Below are positions 48,114 through 54,614 of a stretch of 64,000 nt of DNA, in pieces. Numbering within the stretch: position 1 is the first letter of the stretch; every line of letters begins with the position of its first letter. The notes beneath the pieces are model-generated. The model searched no databases and was not told the DNA's origin. It saw nothing but the letters and a program-made list of their open reading frames with translations. The translations under genes and the position numbers were made by a program. Origin of the DNA: Bordetella genomosp. 1 (lineage in GTDB: Bacteria; Pseudomonadota; Gammaproteobacteria; Burkholderiales; Burkholderiaceae_B); the NCBI RefSeq assembly GCF_002261335.1, contig NZ_NEVL01000003.1, positions 1,736,001 through 1,800,000 of the forward strand, in the 5' to 3' direction.

Positions 48114-49670
48114 TCATTGCGGCAGGTAGAAGCTGGCCGCTTCGTTCAGGTCGAGCTGCGGTCCCGCGCTGCCCTCGACGCTGCGCATCTCGAAGCGGAT
48201 GGGATGCGAGCCGGGCGCGGCGGCGTCCAGCGGCGCCCGCACCACGACCGGCACCAGCAGATTGCTCGCGGCAGGCACCCGCACGTCGGCGCTCTCGGAC
48301 GGCATGGTGCGCACGCTCAGGCCCGGCAGGCCGCTGGCAGACAGTTGCAGGCGCAACGCTTCGTCGGAAGTGTTGATGAACTGCAGCCGGTAGATGTTTT
48401 CGATCTGGCCGCCGGGCACCTCGCGCGCCAGCACGCCGCGGTCGCGGATGACGTCTACCCGCAAGGGGCTGCGCACGGCCAGGCTGCTCAGCAGGCCGAA
48501 CACCAACAGCAGCACCAGGCCGCCATAGATCAGGATGCGCGGACGCCACAGGCGCCGCCGCGCGGCGCGCGCGTCGAGCCCGTCGTCGATGGCACGCTCG
48601 GAGGTGTAGCGAATCAGGCCGGCGGGATACTGCATCTTGGCCATGACCTGGTTGCACGCGTCGATGCACGCGCCGCAACCGATGCACATGTATTGCAGGC
48701 CGTCGCGGATGTCGATGCCGGTCGGGCAGACCTGCACGCAGAGGCTGCAATCCACGCAGTCGCCCATGCCGGCGCCGCGATGGTCGATCTTGCGCGAGCG
48801 GCCGCCGCGCGGCTCGCCCCGCACGCGGTCGTACGTGACCACGAAGGTGTCGCGGTCGACCATCACGCTCTGGAAGCGGGCGTAGGGGCACATGTACTTG
48901 CACACCTGCTCGCGCATGAAGCCCGCGTTGCCCCAGGTGGCAAAGCCGTAGAACAGCATCCAGAACCACTGCCATGCGCCGAGCTGCAGCGTGAACAGCT
49001 GGTGGCCCAGGTCGCGGATCGGCGCGAAGTAGCCGATGAAGGTCGAGCCGGTCCACCAGGCGAGCAGGATCCAGAGCGCGTGCTTGCCGACCTTGAGCCG
49101 GATCTTGCGCGCCGTCCAGGGCGATTCGTCGAGCCGGATGCGGGCGATGCGATCGCCCTCGATGCGGCGCTCGATCCACATGAAGATCTCGGTATAGACC
49201 GTCTGCGGACAGGCATAGCCGCAGAACAGCCGGCCGGCCACCGCCGTGAACAGAAACAGCGCCAGCGCGCTGATCACCAGCAGCACCGCCAGGTACACCA
49301 CGTCCTGCGGCCACAGCACCAGGCCGAACAGATAGAACTTGCGCGCGCCGAGGTCGAACAGCACGGCCTGGCGCCCCTCCCACTGCACCCACGGCAGGCC
49401 GTAGAAGATCAGCTGGGTCAGGACCACGAACACGATGCGCCAGTGCGCGAACGTGCCGCTCACCGAGCGGGGGTAGACCTTGATGCGCACCTCCGCCAGC
49501 CGGCTCTCGACCGAGTTGGCGGGTGGCGGCGCCGGACGCCACAGCCCGGGGGGCGGCTCGGCCGGGGCACCGGCGGGCGGCAGCCCCGGTGCGGCCGCAC
49601 TTGCCGCCGCACTTGCCGCCGCACTTGCCGTGGCGGCGTCGGGCGGGGGGGAAACGGCGCGCTGCGTCAT
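48114..49670 (-). CDS. ccoG: Cytochrome c oxidase accessory protein CcoG (4Fe-4S, copper-related)
   Basis: A 518-residue membrane protein with five to six helices. An unusual Ala/Ser/Pro-rich N-terminal ~60 residues precedes helix one. CGYACPQTVYTE and CKYMCPYARFQ lie around the third-fourth helices; two 4Fe-4S motifs follow, DCVDCSLCVQVCPTGI and CIGCGACIDACNQVM. A periplasmic Ig-like C-terminal domain ends the protein. CcoG reduces Cu(II) for delivery to cbb3. Start ATG 49670 overlaps the stop of the 67-residue ORF (ATGA), so it is translationally coupled. Confidence 0.96.
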   Translation of the reverse strand: MTQRAVSPPPDAATASAAASAAASAAAPGLPPAGAPAEPPPGLWRPAPPPANSVESRLAEVRIKVYPRSVSGTFAHWRIVFVVLTQLIFYGLPWVQWEGRQAVLFDLGARKFYLFGLVLWPQDVVYLAVLLVISALALFLFTAVAGRLFCGYACPQTVYTEIFMWIERRIEGDRIARIRLDESPWTARKIRLKVGKHALWILLAWWTGSTFIGYFAPIRDLGHQLFTLQLGAWQWFWMLFYGFATWGNAGFMREQVCKYMCPYARFQSVMVDRDTFVVTYDRVRGEPRGGRSRKIDHRGAGMGDCVDCSLCVQVCPTGIDIRDGLQYMCIGCGACIDACNQVMAKMQYPAGLIRYTSERAIDDGLDARAARRRLWRPRILIYGGLVLLLVFGLLSSLAVRSPLRVDVIRDRGVLAREVPGGQIENIYRLQFINTSDEALRLQLSASGLPGLSVRTMPSESADVRVPAASNLLVPVVVRAPLDAAAPGSHPIRFEMRSVEGSAGPQLDLNEAASFYLPQ

Positions 49671-49870
49671 GACAGCGCCAGGGCCACGGCGGACGCGGCC
49701 GGCATCAGACCCCACGCGCACGCGGTGCGTGCCAGCAGCAGCCGGCACACCGGCCCCTCGGCCACGACGGCGTCGGCCGCGGCATCGCCGCGCGGGCGCA
49801 GGCCCGTGCGGACGGCGTCGCCCGCGATTGCAGCCACGTCGGCAGGCATCATCAGAGGAGAGTCGCTCAT
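49667..49870 (-). CDS. Predicted 67-residue small protein between ccoP and ccoG
   Basis: A 67-residue frame beginning MSDSPLMMPADVAAIAGDAV and ending in AACAWGLMPAASAVALALS-like hydrophobic sequence (LLLARTACAWGLMPAASAVA), so one C-terminal membrane helix is plausible. It starts with ATGA overlapping the ccoP stop and ends with ATGA overlapping the ccoG start; junction at both ends is the arrangement used throughout this operon (ccoQ/P). That makes translation likely, although no family is recognised. It would be a new small component linked to cbb3. Confidence 0.6.
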   Translation of the reverse strand: MSDSPLMMPADVAAIAGDAVRTGLRPRGDAAADAVVAEGPVCRLLLARTACAWGLMPAASAVALALS

Positions 49871-50817
49871 TGGCGAGCCTCCGCGGAAGCGACGCCGGCC
49901 TGGGCGCCGGGCTGGTTCGACAGCCCCCACACCCAGGCGGTCAGCAGCCGGATCTGCTCGGGCGTGAGCACGTCCTTGTGGGCCGGCATCTGGTTGTTGC
50001 GGCCTTCGCGGATGGTGCGCACGATGGCGGCCTCCGAGCTGCCGTACAGCCACACCGCGTCGGTCAGGTTGGGCGCGCCCAGCGCCTGGTTGCCCTTGCC
50101 ATCCACGCCATGACAGGCGACGCAGTAGTTGCCGAACTCGCGCTTGCCGCGGAACACCCTCACCGGGTCGGACGCCAGGCCCGACAGCGAGCGCACGTAA
50201 TGCGCGATGTCGGTAGCCATGCGCACGTCGACCACGCTGCCCCAGGGCGGCATGATGCCGTGACGGCCGTCGCGGATGGTGGTCTCGATCGCCTCGGGCG
50301 TGCCGCCATGCAGCCAGTCGCCGTCGGTGAGATTGGGGAAGCCGGGCGCGCCGCGCGCATCCGAGCCGTGGCACTGCGAGCAGGTGCTGAGGAAGAGCCG
50401 CTGGCCCACCTCGCGCGCCGGGATGTCGCCGGCCAGCTCGGGCACGCTCATGCCTTCGAAGCGCGCATACAGCGGCCGCACCGCCTCGCGCTGCGCCTCC
50501 TGCTGCTGCGCCACCTCGCCGGCGGTGGTGTAGCCCAGCACGCCCTTGTACTCGCCCAGGCCCGGAAACAGCACCAGGTAGGCGAGCGCGAAGACACAGA
50601 GCAGCAGGTACATCCAGGTCCACCAGCGCGGCACCGGATTGTTGAGCTCGGTCAGGTCGCCGTCCCACACATGGCCGGTGTCCTCGACCTGGCCCGCGGC
50701 CGGGCGTTCGCCCAGCCAGCGGCGCTGCGTGTACAGCAGCCACAGGCACCACACGATGCCACCCACGGCGATGATGCCGATGAAGTAGCTCCAGAAACCG
50801 TTGACGAAATCGCTCAT
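49867..50817 (-). CDS. ccoP: cbb3-type cytochrome c oxidase subunit CcoP (diheme)
   Basis: A 316-residue diheme c-type subunit: one N-terminal anchor helix (FWSYFIGIIAVGGIVWCLWL), CcoP N-terminal domain, then heme motifs C146-SQ-C149-H150 and C232-VA-C235-H236. It passes electrons from the cytochrome bc1/c pool to CcoO/CcoN at the periplasmic face. The ATG overlaps the ccoQ stop (ATGA). Length and motifs are typical. Confidence 0.98.
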   Translation of the reverse strand: MSDFVNGFWSYFIGIIAVGGIVWCLWLLYTQRRWLGERPAAGQVEDTGHVWDGDLTELNNPVPRWWTWMYLLLCVFALAYLVLFPGLGEYKGVLGYTTAGEVAQQQEAQREAVRPLYARFEGMSVPELAGDIPAREVGQRLFLSTCSQCHGSDARGAPGFPNLTDGDWLHGGTPEAIETTIRDGRHGIMPPWGSVVDVRMATDIAHYVRSLSGLASDPVRVFRGKREFGNYCVACHGVDGKGNQALGAPNLTDAVWLYGSSEAAIVRTIREGRNNQMPAHKDVLTPEQIRLLTAWVWGLSNQPGAQAGVASAEARQ

Positions 50818-50996
50818 GGCGTCCCCGACACATTGGGTTGGGCCGGCGCGGCTTCAGCGCCCTCGTCCGGCAAGGCAAACGGCAGCAGGGCCGACGCGGC
50901 GTTGGCGGGCTGGCGGTGACGCGACCACGCCCACCACACGATGCCCAGGAACGTCGCCATCGACAGGGCCGTGATCACACTCGAAAGCATCAGCAT
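50814..50996 (-). CDS. ccoQ: cbb3-type cytochrome oxidase subunit CcoQ
   Basis: A 60-residue single-helix protein (MLMLSSVITALSMATFLGIV followed by WWAWSRHRQPAN) with a short cytosolic tail. It is the small stabilising subunit of cbb3. It lies 4 bases after ccoO and overlaps ccoP (ATGA), the standard NOQP order. Confidence 0.95.
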   Translation of the reverse strand: MLMLSSVITALSMATFLGIVWWAWSRHRQPANAASALLPFALPDEGAEAAPAQPNVSGTP

Positions 50997-51000
50997 CGCG

Positions 51001-51738
51001 TCACTCCTTGGCAGCAGTACCGGCAGCGGGCGTACCGGCAGCGGGCGTACCGGCTGCGGGCGTACCGGCTGCGGGCGTGGCCGCTGCGGCCGCCGCCGCG
51101 GCCGCCTGCCGGCGCGCGGCCACGCCGAGCCCCTGCAGGTATGCGATCAGCGCGTCTTCCTCGGTCTTGCCGGCCAGCGCCGCGGGCGCGGCCTCGATGG
51201 TGGCGTCGTCGTAGGGCACGCCCAGACGGCGCAGCGCACGCATGCGGTCCTGCACGTCGGCCTGCGCCACGCTCGCATGCTGCAGCCAGGGATAGGCGGG
51301 CATGTTGGACTCGGGCACCGCGGCGCGCGGATCGCGCAGATGGATGCGGTGCCATTCGTCCGTGTAGCGCTCGCCCACGCGTGCGAGATCGGGGCCGGTG
51401 CGCTTGGAGCCCCACAGGAACGGATGGTCGAACACCGACTCCGACGACAGCGAGTAGGCGCCGTAGCGCTGCACCTCCGATTGCAGCATGCGCACCTGCT
51501 GCGAGTGACAGCCCACACAGCCTTCGCGGATGTAGATGTCGCGGCCGATCAGGGTCAGCGCCTCGTACGGCTTCACGCCGGGCGCCGCATTGGTGGTCGA
51601 GTGCTGGAAGAACAGCGGCACGATCTGCACCAGGCCGGCGAACGACACCACCAGGATGCTGGCGATGATCATCAGGCCGATGTTGCGTTCGAGGGTCTGG
51701 TGCGAGAAGAAACGCGGCTTGGATTGTGGTTGGCTCAT
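51001..51738 (-). CDS. ccoO: cbb3-type cytochrome c oxidase subunit CcoO (monoheme), with repeat tail
   Basis: A 245-residue subunit with one N-terminal anchor helix and a heme motif C74-VG-C77-H78 in [15 protein letters not shown]. The C-terminus differs from most homologues: after [11 protein letters not shown] an Ala-run and four to five copies of TPAAG extend it by about 35 residues, encoded by a 15-base tandem repeat. This tail is probably dispensable or a flexible linker. AAGGAG precedes the ATG, 13 bases after the ccoN stop. Confidence 0.97.
51016..51080. repeat. 15-base tandem repeat in the 3' end of ccoO
   Basis: On the plus strand, CGTACCGGCAGCGGG-type units lie at 51016, 51031, 51046 and 51061, with a diverged fifth copy. 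They encode the TPAAG repeats of the CcoO tail on the minus strand. Copy number changes would keep the frame. Confidence 0.9.
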
Positions 51739-51751
51739 GTCGGCGTCTCCT

Positions 51752-53245
51752 TCAGGCCGTCGCGGGCGCGGGGGCCGCCACCGGGCTCGGCGCGGTGAGC
51801 GGAACGGGCGGCACCACCGGATTGACCGGGCGCTCGCCGCGCACGGTGCGCCAGACGTTCCAGGCCATCACCCACATGCCGGCGAGATACAGCGCGCCGC
51901 CCATGACACGGATCAGGTAATACGGCACGCGCGTCTTGAGCTCCTCGACGAAGCTGTAGACCGGCAGGCCGTCGGCCCCCATGTCGCGCCACATCAGGCC
52001 CTGCTGCACGCCGGCCGTCCACATCGCGGCGATGTAGAGCACCACGCCGACGGTGGCGAGCCAGAAGTGCAGCTCGATGGCGCGCACGCTGTACATGCGC
52101 TCGCGGCCGTAGAGACGCGGGATCAGGTAATAGAGCGAACCGAAGGTGATCATCGCGACCCAGCCGAGCGAGCCCGAATGCACGTGGCCGATGGTCCAGT
52201 CGGTGTAGTGCGACAGCGAGTTGACGGTGCGGATCGACATCATCGAACCCTCGAAGGTCGACATGCCGTAGAACGACAGCGCGGTGACCAGGAACTTCAG
52301 GATCGGGTCGGTGCGCAGCTTGTGCCAGGCGCCCTGCAGCGTCATGATGCCGTTGATCATGCCGCCCCACGACGGCGCCAGCAGGATCAGCGAGAAGGTC
52401 ATGCCGAGCGACTGGGTCCAGTCGGGCAGCGAGGTGTAGAGCAGGTGATGCGGGCCGGCCCACATGTAGGTGAACGCCAGCGCCCAGAAGTGCACGATCG
52501 ACAGGCGGTACGAGTAGATCGGGCGGCCGGCCTGCTTGGGCACGAAGTAATACATCATGCCCAGGAAGCTCGTGGTCAGGAAGAAGCCCACGGCGTTGTG
52601 GCCATACCACCACTGCACCATTGCGTCCTGCACGCCCGCGTAGGCCGAATACGACTTCCACAGCGACACCGGCATTTCGATGTTGTTGAAGATGTGCAGG
52701 ACGGCGATCGTCAGGATGTAGGAGCCGAAGAACCAGTTGGCCACGTAGATGTGGCGCACCCGGCGCTTGACGATGGTGCCGAAGAACACCACCGCGTAGG
52801 CCACCCACACCGCGGTGATCAGGATGTCGATGGGCCACTCGAGCTCGGCGTATTCCTTGCTGCTCGTGATGCCCAGCGGCAGCGTGATGGCCGCGGCCAC
52901 GATCACGAGTTGCCAGCCCCAGAAGGTGAAGGCGGCCAGCGGCGCACAGAACAGGCGCACCTGACAGGTCCGCTGCACCACGTAGTACGAGGTGGCGAAC
53001 AGGGCGCTGCCGCCGAACGCGAAGATCACCGCGTTGGTATGCAGCGGGCGCAGGCGGCCGTAGCTCAGCCATGCGGTGTCGAAATTCAATTGCGGCCAGA
53101 TCAGTTGCGCCGCGATCAATACACCGACGGACATGCCGACGATGCCCCACACGATGGTCATCAGCGCGAACTGGCGCACCACCGTGTAGTTGAATTGTTC
53201 ATGCGGCGCCGCTTCGTCCTGCGCGCGGACAGTGCCATCGCTCAT
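51752..53245 (-). CDS. ccoN: cbb3-type cytochrome c oxidase subunit CcoN (catalytic)
   Basis: A 497-residue, 12-helix heme-copper oxidase subunit. The redox-centre ligands are visible: [14 protein letters not shown] (heme b), [13 protein letters not shown] (CuB His) with GPHHLLYTS (further CuB His pair), and [10 protein letters not shown] (heme ligands). It reduces O2 with high affinity and pumps protons. The ATG at 53245 lies 80 bases below a perfect FNR box. A ~25-residue Pro/Val/Ala-rich tail ends the protein. Confidence 0.98.
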
Positions 53246-53324
53246 CAGACTTCCCCTCAAGAAACCGGAACATCGAAACGTTCATTTACGAATCGGATGA
53301 TGCGCGCGGGCCGGTCGAGGGGGC

Positions 53325-53338
53325 TTGATGCAAATCAA
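53325..53338. promoter_or_regulatory. FNR box upstream of ccoN
   Basis: TTGAT-GCAA-ATCAA, a perfect FNR dyad, centred at 53331.5. A -10-like CATCAT at 53297-53302 is placed for a class II promoter with start near 53290 (45 bases upstream of ccoN). The FNR protein of this window is the likely activator. Confidence 0.9.
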
Positions 53339-53363: not shown

Positions 53364-53507
53364 TCAGACGTCCTTGTCGCGCAGGATCGACAAGCCTTCG
53401 TTTTCGCTGTCGTCGAACTGCCCGTTGAACACCGCCCACCACAGCGCGACGCCGATCGCCAGCACGAAGATCAGCGACACCGGCAGGAGCAGATAGAGAA
53501 TGTCCAT
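53364..53507 (-). CDS. ccoS: cbb3 oxidase assembly protein CcoS
   Basis: A 47-residue, single-helix protein (MDILYLLLPVSLIFVLAIGV then ALWWAVFNGQFDD), the standard CcoS signature, followed by an acidic tail. CcoS helps insert heme or copper into CcoN. It lies 8 bases after the ccoI-like gene and 119 bases upstream of ccoN. Normal length for the family. Confidence 0.95.
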   Translation of the reverse strand: MDILYLLLPVSLIFVLAIGVALWWAVFNGQFDDSENEGLSILRDKDV

Positions 53508-53515
53508 GGCGCGCC

Positions 53516-54565
53516 TCAGGAGGCCTGCGCCAAAGGGGCCGCCGCCCGCGGCGCGCGGCGGCGCGCCAGGCGCCAGGCGTTGAGCGCCACCGCGACGGTG
53601 GACAGCAGCATGGCGAGCGCCGCCAGCCAGGGCGTGACCCAGCCCACCAGCGCGGGCGGCACCATCAGGAGGTGCCAGATCAACGAGCCATACAGATTCT
53701 GCAGGGCGATGCGCCGCGCCCGCAGGGGAATGGCGTGCAGCGCGGCGGCATCGCCGTCGCGTTCGGCCTGCAACAGCGCGGCCCGTGCCGCGGCCAGCGT
53801 GGCCGGCACCGCCATGGCCATGGCACACGGACAGCTCATCACCAGCAAAGCCACCATCACGGGCACCGCGTGCGCGGGTTCGACCCAGGCCCAGCCCGCG
53901 CCGGCCAGCAACGCCAGCAGCACCTGCAGGGTGACGAAGCGCGCGGCCACGCGGTCGGCCCGTTGCGCCAGGGCGGCGCTGTCCAGCGCGGCGCTGTCCA
54001 GCGCGGCGCTATCCAGCGCGGCACCATCCCGCGCGGCGCCGAGGGCCGCGGCATCCGCGCCCCCCACGCGCTGGCGCGCGCACAGCTCCAGGTAGCGCGC
54101 CGCCAGCAGAAAGGCGACGAACATGGTGACCGAATCGAAATAGACCTCGCCGGCCTGGCGCCACGTGGCCCAGGCGCTCGGCAGGAAGGCGCCGACGATG
54201 CCGAGCGCCACCGGCACGTCCATGCCGGCGCGCGCCTGCCGCAGGCTGGCCCACGCGCCGCGCCACAGGGGCCAGGCGCAATACAGCACCACCGGCACGG
54301 TCAGCACCAGGCTGGCCCAGTTCATCAGCACGATGGCGCGATCGAGCGTGAAGGCGGCGTCGTCGGGCATGGCCTGGCCGCGCAGGTAGCCGGGCCAGGC
54401 CAGCATCATCACCTGCATCATCACCAGCCAGGACACGCCCAGGCGCGCCAGCGCGTGACGCCGCACCTGACGCTCGGCGGGCGCGAGCGCAGCCGGCTGC
54501 GCGAAGATGGAGGCGGCGGGCCGGCGCGCGGCCGCCATGCCGTCGGCGGACGGAGTCGTGGTCAT
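53516..54565 (-). CDS. CcoI-position P1B-ATPase-derived membrane protein lacking both catalytic domains
   Basis: A 349-residue protein in the place of ccoI. It keeps the P1B transmembrane core, including helices before and after the CPC site (C245-P-C247 in VMSCPCAMAMAVPATLAAAR) and the last helix pair (GSLIWHLLMVPPALVGWVTP...). But the actuator loop is replaced by a short linker with AALDSAALDSAALDSAAL, and the phosphorylation/ATP domain (DKTGT) after the CPC helix is absent; no metal-binding N-domain either. The frame is open, with normal codon use. It may bind or pass copper without pumping, or act in assembly. An FNR box precedes it. Confidence 0.75.
   Translation of the reverse strand: MTTTPSADGMAAARRPAASIFAQPAALAPAERQVRRHALARLGVSWLVMMQVMMLAWPGYLRGQAMPDDAAFTLDRAIVLMNWASLVLTVPVVLYCAWPLWRGAWASLRQARAGMDVPVALGIVGAFLPSAWATWRQAGEVYFDSVTMFVAFLLAARYLELCARQRVGGADAAALGAARDGAALDSAALDSAALDSAALAQRADRVAARFVTLQVLLALLAGAGWAWVEPAHAVPVMVALLVMSCPCAMAMAVPATLAAARAALLQAERDGDAAALHAIPLRARRIALQNLYGSLIWHLLMVPPALVGWVTPWLAALAMLLSTVAVALNAWRLARRRAPRAAAPLAQAS
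53973..54032. repeat. 15-base tandem repeat in the ccoI-like gene
   Basis: Four in-frame copies of GCGGCGCTGTCCAGC (plus strand) at 53973, 53988, 54003 and 54018, the last diverged. They encode the AALDS linker that replaces the actuator domain. Confidence 0.88.
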
Positions 54566-54600: not shown

Positions 54601-54614
54601 TTGATCTGCGTCAA
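54601..54614. promoter_or_regulatory. FNR box upstream of the ccoI-like gene
   Basis: TTGAT-CTGC-GTCAA at 54601-54614, one mismatch to the dyad, centred 42.5 bases upstream of the ATG at 54565. A TACGCT -10-like hexamer at 54573-54578 is correctly placed for class II activation, which would put the transcript start about at the ATG. Confidence 0.8.

Follow-up and report, generated by a model that had tools for sequence, protein, structure and literature searches.

A domain-stripped CcoI at the cbb3 oxidase locus of Bordetella as a candidate ATP-independent copper-handling assembly factor

The DNA analysed here (the window, a stretch of 64,000 nucleotides from Bordetella genomosp. 1) carries a cbb3 oxidase operon in which all genes lie on the minus strand, in the order short ccoI, ccoS, ccoN, ccoO, a ccoQ-like gene, ccoP, ccoG and a fixH-like gene (Table 1). 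Short ccoI, the subject of this work, encodes a CcoI stripped of its soluble domains and ends 8 bases before the ATG of ccoS. Most of the relatives shown begin at or just before the methionine that precedes a SIF motif, so the true start of the window protein may be its residue 10. In the same operon, the C-terminus of CcoO (window 51001-51100) ends in a repeated PAAGT tail, a simple coding repeat like the AALDS array within short ccoI, in a GC-rich genome.

Table 1. Features of the cbb3 locus and of short ccoI (window coordinates; conservation counted over 70 short proteins)
Feature	Positions	Strand	Basis or remark
FNR/ANR-type box upstream of short ccoI	54601..54614	plus	one mismatch
Short ccoI (domain-stripped)	53516..54565	minus	open coding frame, 349 aa from first ATG
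Probable true start (residue 10)	near 54538		start positions in relatives
TM1 motif MMQVMM, residues 49-54	54404..54421	minus	common with full-length CcoI; absent from the three CopA compared
Asp144, equivalent of LpCopA E189 (exit acid)	54134..54136	minus	Asp 57 or Glu 13; acidic 70/70
Linker in place of the actuator domain	53948..54070	minus	between Q165 and A207, 41 residues
15-bp tandem array, source of the AALDS repeats	53968..54039		4.8 copies
CPC in TM6 (C245, P246, C247), predicted intramembrane metal site	53825..53833	minus	70/70
Linker in place of the P and N domains	53702..53803	minus	between P254 and Q289, 34 residues
W297-H298 in TM7, replacing the Tyr-Asn of the pumps	53672..53677	minus	His 70/70; Trp 67, Phe 3
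M319 and S322 in TM8 (M-x-x-S)	53600..53611	minus	both 70/70
ccoS	53364..53507	minus	8 bases downstream of the short ccoI stop codon
Perfect FNR-type box upstream of ccoN	53325-53338		
ccoN, cbb3 catalytic subunit	51752..53260	minus	TIGR00780, 755 bits
ccoO	51001..51738	minus	named from position and homologues in relatives
ccoQ-like	50814..50996	minus	weak FixQ match, PF05545, E 0.01, under cut-off
ccoP	49867..50817	minus	named from position and homologues in relatives
ccoG	48114..49748	minus	TIGR02745, 493 bits
Very short FixH/ccoH-like gene, 76 aa	47863..48093	minus	PF05751 positions 1-36 of 150, under cut-off

A sequence-only reading of this stretch had described the gene as the membrane core of a P1B-type ATPase without its two catalytic domains. 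Pfam and NCBIfam searches together with alignment confirm that description, with the correction that four soluble modules are gone: the N-terminal metal-binding site N-MBS1 (PF12156), the HMA domain, the A (actuator) domain and the P/N domain. The only Pfam match in the window protein covers positions 101-178 of the 181 in PF00122, the end of that profile with the CPC region; the same search returned no HAD/P domain, HMA or PF12156. An alignment of 50 short proteins (the window protein and 49 relatives, out of 64) extends this result, with PF12156, HMA and the HAD domain (PF00702) absent from all 50. The full CcoI from Cupriavidus, taken as reference for comparison, has PF12156, HMA, the A domain and the HAD/P-N domain. 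NCBIfam copper-ATPase models match the window protein only piecewise and far under their cut-offs (TIGR01511, 73.8 bits against 397). In a motif search of the 64 short proteins, DKTG, GDGxND and C..C were found in none and the TGE string, the actuator loop motif, in four.

What remains between the helices is short. The linker that replaces the actuator domain measures 19-41 residues in the 64 short proteins, against 130-138 in 15 full-length CcoI, and the one that replaces the P and N domains measures 31-48 residues, against 281-295 in 14 of these 15 (the fifteenth, L097, reaches its contig end and gives 209 residues for this second linker). Eight helices were assigned to short CcoI from its alignment to CcoI; a crude hydropathy scan gives fewer separate stretches, with the last helix pair merged. 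The sequence-only reading had also pointed to an AALDS linker in the place of the actuator domain. A repetitive linker is indeed there, but it is no family trait: among the sequences aligned AALDS occurs in this genome only, the nearest relative (L032) being without it, and it is a local peculiarity with no part in the family-wide form.

Measured against the features that define a P1B-type ATPase, short CcoI lacks the catalytic P domain, the actuator domain and the N-terminal metal-binding modules; it has the transmembrane CPC and, of the set formed by Tyr-Asn in TM7 and Met-Ser in TM8, only the TM8 half. By descent it is a CcoI, while by definition it is no P-type ATPase, and a name given by family match ("copper-translocating P-type ATPase") would mislead.

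The same form is widespread in the window's family. Some match to short CcoI was obtained in 140 of 151 family genomes, and in 102 of the 151 the gene is an open frame of 312-370 codons. In six of the 102 (G002, G032, G111, G132, G138, G148) the aligned stretch crosses one stop codon; for G002, G132 and G148 the frames themselves (L031, L010, L013) place that stop at an end of the match. The same deletion thus recurs across related genera, a point that the sequence-only reading had wanted checked, and such recurrence excludes both chance and the assembly error which that reading had named as a possible refutation.

Short ccoI also travels with its oxidase, and this co-occurrence lends indirect support to a role in cbb3 assembly. 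A ccoN above the cut-off is present in 113 of the 151 genomes, 99 of which carry short CcoI. Ten of the 14 others (G011, G012, G026, G030, G063, G065, G073, G131, G135, G147) have, in the ccoN cluster, a CcoI with catalytic domains in frames of 619-846 aa; among the remaining four, G079 is fragmented, and G069, G106 and G142 are drafts in which neither form was found. Conversely, three genomes with the short form have no ccoN above the cut-off (G093, G098, G102), their ccoN matches being partial or broken and, in G098, weak only. Within the window's own genus, G036 gives only weak matches to both queries. In G092, a genome of 4.0 Mb from that genus, the search tables show short ccoI in two pieces about 1 kb apart (G092:C1:2212589-2214591) and ccoN broken as well; there the two genes are decaying together. 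A broken ccoN is likewise described for B. pertussis in the accessible parts of two studies (PMC13038864; PMC11257404). In one genus (g27), four of the searched genomes carry short CcoI (G086, G108, G127, G144) and a fifth, G026, carries a full-length, long-branched CcoI (L152, G026:C9), perhaps a replacement by transfer.

Outside the family the picture is different. Scans of 369 genomes of the class and 399 of the order, with five or six first-look candidates scored per genome, gave no near-complete match beyond the family among the matches listed: in the class scan the only one was the window's own, and the nine listed for the order all belong to the window's family. The other matches listed cover the first part of the profile only and lie in longer frames. 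Two short frames outside the family (G212 and G440) both lie at contig ends, and other truncated frames, for example of 404-476 aa in the order scan, are known from the listings alone.

A quick tree of the shared core, in which 100 rows had been thinned to 81 by removal of near-identical ones, groups the 51 short rows together, set apart by a branch with SH-aLRT 100, inside betaproteobacterial CcoI. Left out of the alignments were L049 (intact), L090 (cut by a contig end) and three CopA rows that were out of frame. On this tree the short form belongs to the CcoI lineage by descent, and since it makes a single clade, the domains would most simply have been lost once, in a common ancestor. The stem of the clade is long (0.86 changes per column), which suggests fast change at the time of the domain loss.

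Two further lines of evidence speak against a decaying gene. Ratios of dN/dS lie between 0.03 and 0.21 in 12 of 13 pairs, several of the 12 having dS above 1 and the thirteenth being saturated, and by this measure short ccoI is under purifying selection. Within 170 bases upstream of the gene, 55 of 65 relatives have an FNR-type box carrying no more than one mismatch; among random stretches taken from these loci, 33 of 1300 contain such a box. The sequence-only reading had noted such a box in the window; it is there, with one mismatch, and the perfect box instead precedes ccoN.

The neighbourhood is equally constant. Short ccoI, ccoS and ccoN stand together at 64 of 65 loci, the sixty-fifth (L090) ending at a contig edge, and ccoG is still in the operon at 54 of the 65, the other 11 loci ending early. 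At locus L163 (G077:C15) the ccoI-ccoS pair is intact, while ccoN-O-P-G lie on the other strand; that ccoI and ccoS have stayed together through this rearrangement suggests that they work as a pair. The very short FixH raised the idea that FixH/CcoH had shrunk jointly with CcoI. We rejected it, because a tiny FixH also occurs in relatives with a full CcoI (for example L152 and L160) and is therefore not tied to the change in CcoI.

For the residues of the copper path, equivalences were fixed by an alignment between the family profile and Legionella CopA (3rfu), and the geometry of the site is read from alignment to solved pumps. In LpCopA, E189 is the exit-path acid, M148, E205 and D337 are entry residues, and N689 belongs to the metal site. 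Conservation was counted over 70 short proteins and compared with 27 full CcoI and three CopA. In TM1, M49, M50 and Q51 are found in all 70, M53 in 68 and M54 in 66. As the sequence-only reading had proposed, residues of the copper path are kept although the pump is gone: CPC, M319 and S322 are invariant in the 70, and the exit position is always acidic. The entry methionine (equivalent to M148) is likewise kept in every one. The entry acids vary more. The E205 equivalent is acidic in 62 and Ala in 8, with full CcoI no stricter (24 of 27), while the D337 equivalent is Asp in 55 and Asn in 15, compared with Asp or Glu in 26 of 27 full CcoI.

One position of the metal site has been remodelled. 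In TM7 of full CcoI the Asn is present in 26 of 27 and the Tyr in 25 of 27 (one row is gapped and one has Trp), and all three CopA have Tyr-Asn; in the short proteins the equivalent of N689 is fixed as His and its neighbour is Trp or Phe. A histidine newly fixed where the pumps have a copper ligand, in the company of invariant Cys, Cys and Met, is difficult to account for in a relic or in a pure scaffold. CPC is also a helix-shaping motif, and its conservation alone is thus no proof of metal binding; it is from the conserved ligands that we infer copper handling by short CcoI. Five other residues, outside the metal motifs (W46, N82, W101, P129, Q214), are invariant and specific to the family.

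Among known systems the nearest is CcoI/FixI itself, the CopA2-type P1B-ATPase of cbb3 oxidases, which shares with the short form its slot in the locus, the membrane core, the MMQVMM of TM1, the CPC and the Met-Ser of TM8; identity to 15 full-length CcoI is 55-63% over the first matched stretch (within TM1-TM4). Unlike CcoI/FixI, the short form lacks the N-terminal metal sites, the A, P and N domains and DKTG, it carries Trp/Phe-His for the Tyr-Asn of TM7, and it can have no ATP drive. CopA, the P1B-1 Cu(I) exporter (3rfu, 7r0g, 3j08), is matched by profile in separate pieces covering the helices and the metal-site motifs (E about 1e-24). Against this, CopA has the complete ATPase machinery, the TM1 Met motif is absent from all three CopA compared, and the window's genome keeps a CopA of its own. 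The assembly factors CcoS, CcoG and CcoH, none of them an ATPase, share the operon with short ccoI; they are membrane assembly factors and are not known to derive from P-type ATPases. A further comparison is PINA, the pineal night-specific splice form of ATP7B, which is without much of the pump and is spliced from a gene whose other product is the complete pump. In PINA it is helices that are lost and the catalytic domains that stay, so that short CcoI is the opposite case. In open-licence papers of PubMed Central we found no published description of a domain-stripped CcoI, and the accessible text of a survey of betaproteobacterial copper proteomes counts P1B ATPases with no mention there of a short form (PMC6769254).

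Whether the oxidase works in the hosts was approached through their other oxidases. COX1-family proteins were checked in 11 short-form genomes and bd oxidase in six of these. In G014, G023 and G058 (each rated 100% complete, G058 in 50 contigs) ccoN is the only COX1-family O2 reductase and there is no bd oxidase, the second COX1-family match of G014 being a nitric oxide reductase; cbb3 presumably works in these hosts with a CcoI that has no engine. The short-form genomes G004, G076 and G107 have a bd oxidase, so dependence on cbb3 is suggested for the first three only. SenC/Sco is present in each of G014, G023 and G058. The single other Cu-ATPase match in G023 and in G014 is a complete CopA with CPC, Tyr-Asn and the catalytic motifs, and G058 has a 726-aa frame with an HMA domain. 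No separate CopZ-like frame was found in G023 or G058 (seven genomes tested).

A P1B-type ATPase passes the TIGR01511 cut-off in the window's genome and in 13 of 16 genomes checked. G032 and G146 had suggested that some short-form genomes are without any copper ATPase. This is rejected for G032, where an 887-aa frame passes the cut-off once its pieces are combined; in G146 (84% complete) the best copper-ATPase match is a 717-aa frame under the cut-off. The search for a full-length CcoI elsewhere in the window's genome, which the sequence-only reading had called for, found none by TIGR01511: the matches are short ccoI and four frames of 731-982 aa, namely a CopA-like P1B, a ZntA/CadA-like P1B, another P-type ATPase (C7) and a weak 731-aa frame (C2, known by its match alone). 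Among the matches listed, with at most six candidates scored per genome, the best ones to full-length CcoI fall in genomes without the short form; divergent CcoI (as in G131 and G147) score like CopA, so that a divergent second CcoI copy could escape scoring at this depth.

In model bacteria the copper supply of cbb3 needs ATP-driven export by CcoI, and this family has only the membrane core of that pump at the locus. We favour, by a little, the hypothesis of a family-wide conversion of pump into chaperone: every soluble domain would have been shed, leaving an intramembrane Cu(I)-handling factor that is independent of ATP, has a rebuilt Cys-Cys-His-Met site and is needed for what in some hosts is the only recognised terminal oxidase. 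As for the proposal that short CcoI is an ATP-independent, copper-binding cbb3 assembly factor with a single evolutionary origin in the pump CcoI, we rate it an even call. Mechanistically, short CcoI would be a membrane neighbour of CcoS and CcoN, binding Cu(I) at Cys245, Cys247, His298 and Met319. From there it would hand the copper on to the CuB site of CcoN, by way of SenC-type chaperones or jointly with them. With its ATP-binding domain missing, short CcoI would leave the energy-consuming step, Cu(I) export out of the cytosol, to the ordinary CopA pump, and it would serve assembly as a docking and relay site and no longer as a transporter with its own engine.

Work on the full CcoI of Rhodobacter capsulatus offers a parallel: in the accessible part of that study, extra copper does not bypass the CPC site, while mutants of the N-terminal sites are rescued fully or in part (PMC8475189). 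With CPC indispensable and the N-terminal sites rescuable, this suggests that the intramembrane site is irreplaceable and that ATP-driven export could be delegated to CopA. A result from Bordetella bronchiseptica could, on the other hand, mean that cbb3 is poorly assembled in this lineage, which counts against reading short CcoI as an assembly factor: as far as the accessible text goes, no strain living on cbb3 alone was obtained, though the ccoN transcript was the highest among the oxidase loci, and in the authors' suggestion translation, assembly or cofactors may have fallen short (PMC11257404). That this family has only the membrane core at the locus makes two questions testable: at which step CuB insertion depends on ATP, and whether a P-type ATPase reduced to its membrane half can do useful work by itself.

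The product of ccoG is the cytosolic cupric reductase of the CcoI pathway, and its gene, kept in the operon at 54 of 65 loci, is compatible with copper travelling either through the cytosol or by a periplasmic route. This retention, along with an entry Met, CPC and exit acid that hold in 70 of 70, speaks for a passive conduit: with its Cu(I) path complete, short CcoI would let cytosolic Cu(I) follow its gradient to the periplasmic side and so supply CcoN, no ATP being spent. We regard such a conduit as unlikely. The entry acids are looser, with Asn at the D337 equivalent and Ala at the E205 equivalent in part of the short proteins (at the latter full CcoI is no stricter); a leak of Cu(I) would be costly, and the histidine of the site would tend to hold copper and not to pass it.

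Another alternative, which we consider quite unlikely, keeps the helices only as a membrane scaffold for CcoN, CcoS and CcoH that no longer touches copper. The tight link with ccoS and ccoN, which for ccoS outlasts rearrangement, agrees with a structural role, as do the five invariant, family-specific residues away from the metal motifs. A scaffold, however, need not keep a metal-site set, and here CPC, M319 and S322 are invariant and the N689 equivalent is fixed as His throughout.

It is highly improbable that short CcoI forms a split ATPase, paired in trans with catalytic domains from another gene: most of the genomes checked do encode a P1B-type ATPase above the TIGR01511 cut-off, but no orphan A or P/N domain appears among the TIGR01511 matches of the window's genome, G023 or G014, and both linkers are short. 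Finally, a decaying remnant or an assembly artefact, to which the loss of both catalytic modules and the broken gene and ccoN of G092 might point, is on present sequence evidence refuted by recurrence as an open frame and by purifying selection, to which the FNR-type box and the metal site constant in 70 of 70 may be added; the "retained remnant" allowed for by the sequence-only reading falls likewise, given a gene conserved family-wide with a metal site at once invariant and remodelled.

At three Achromobacter loci (L039, L040, L045), open frames of 469-747 aa run from upstream through short ccoI; these are probably GC-rich read-through of the neighbouring region and no fusions.
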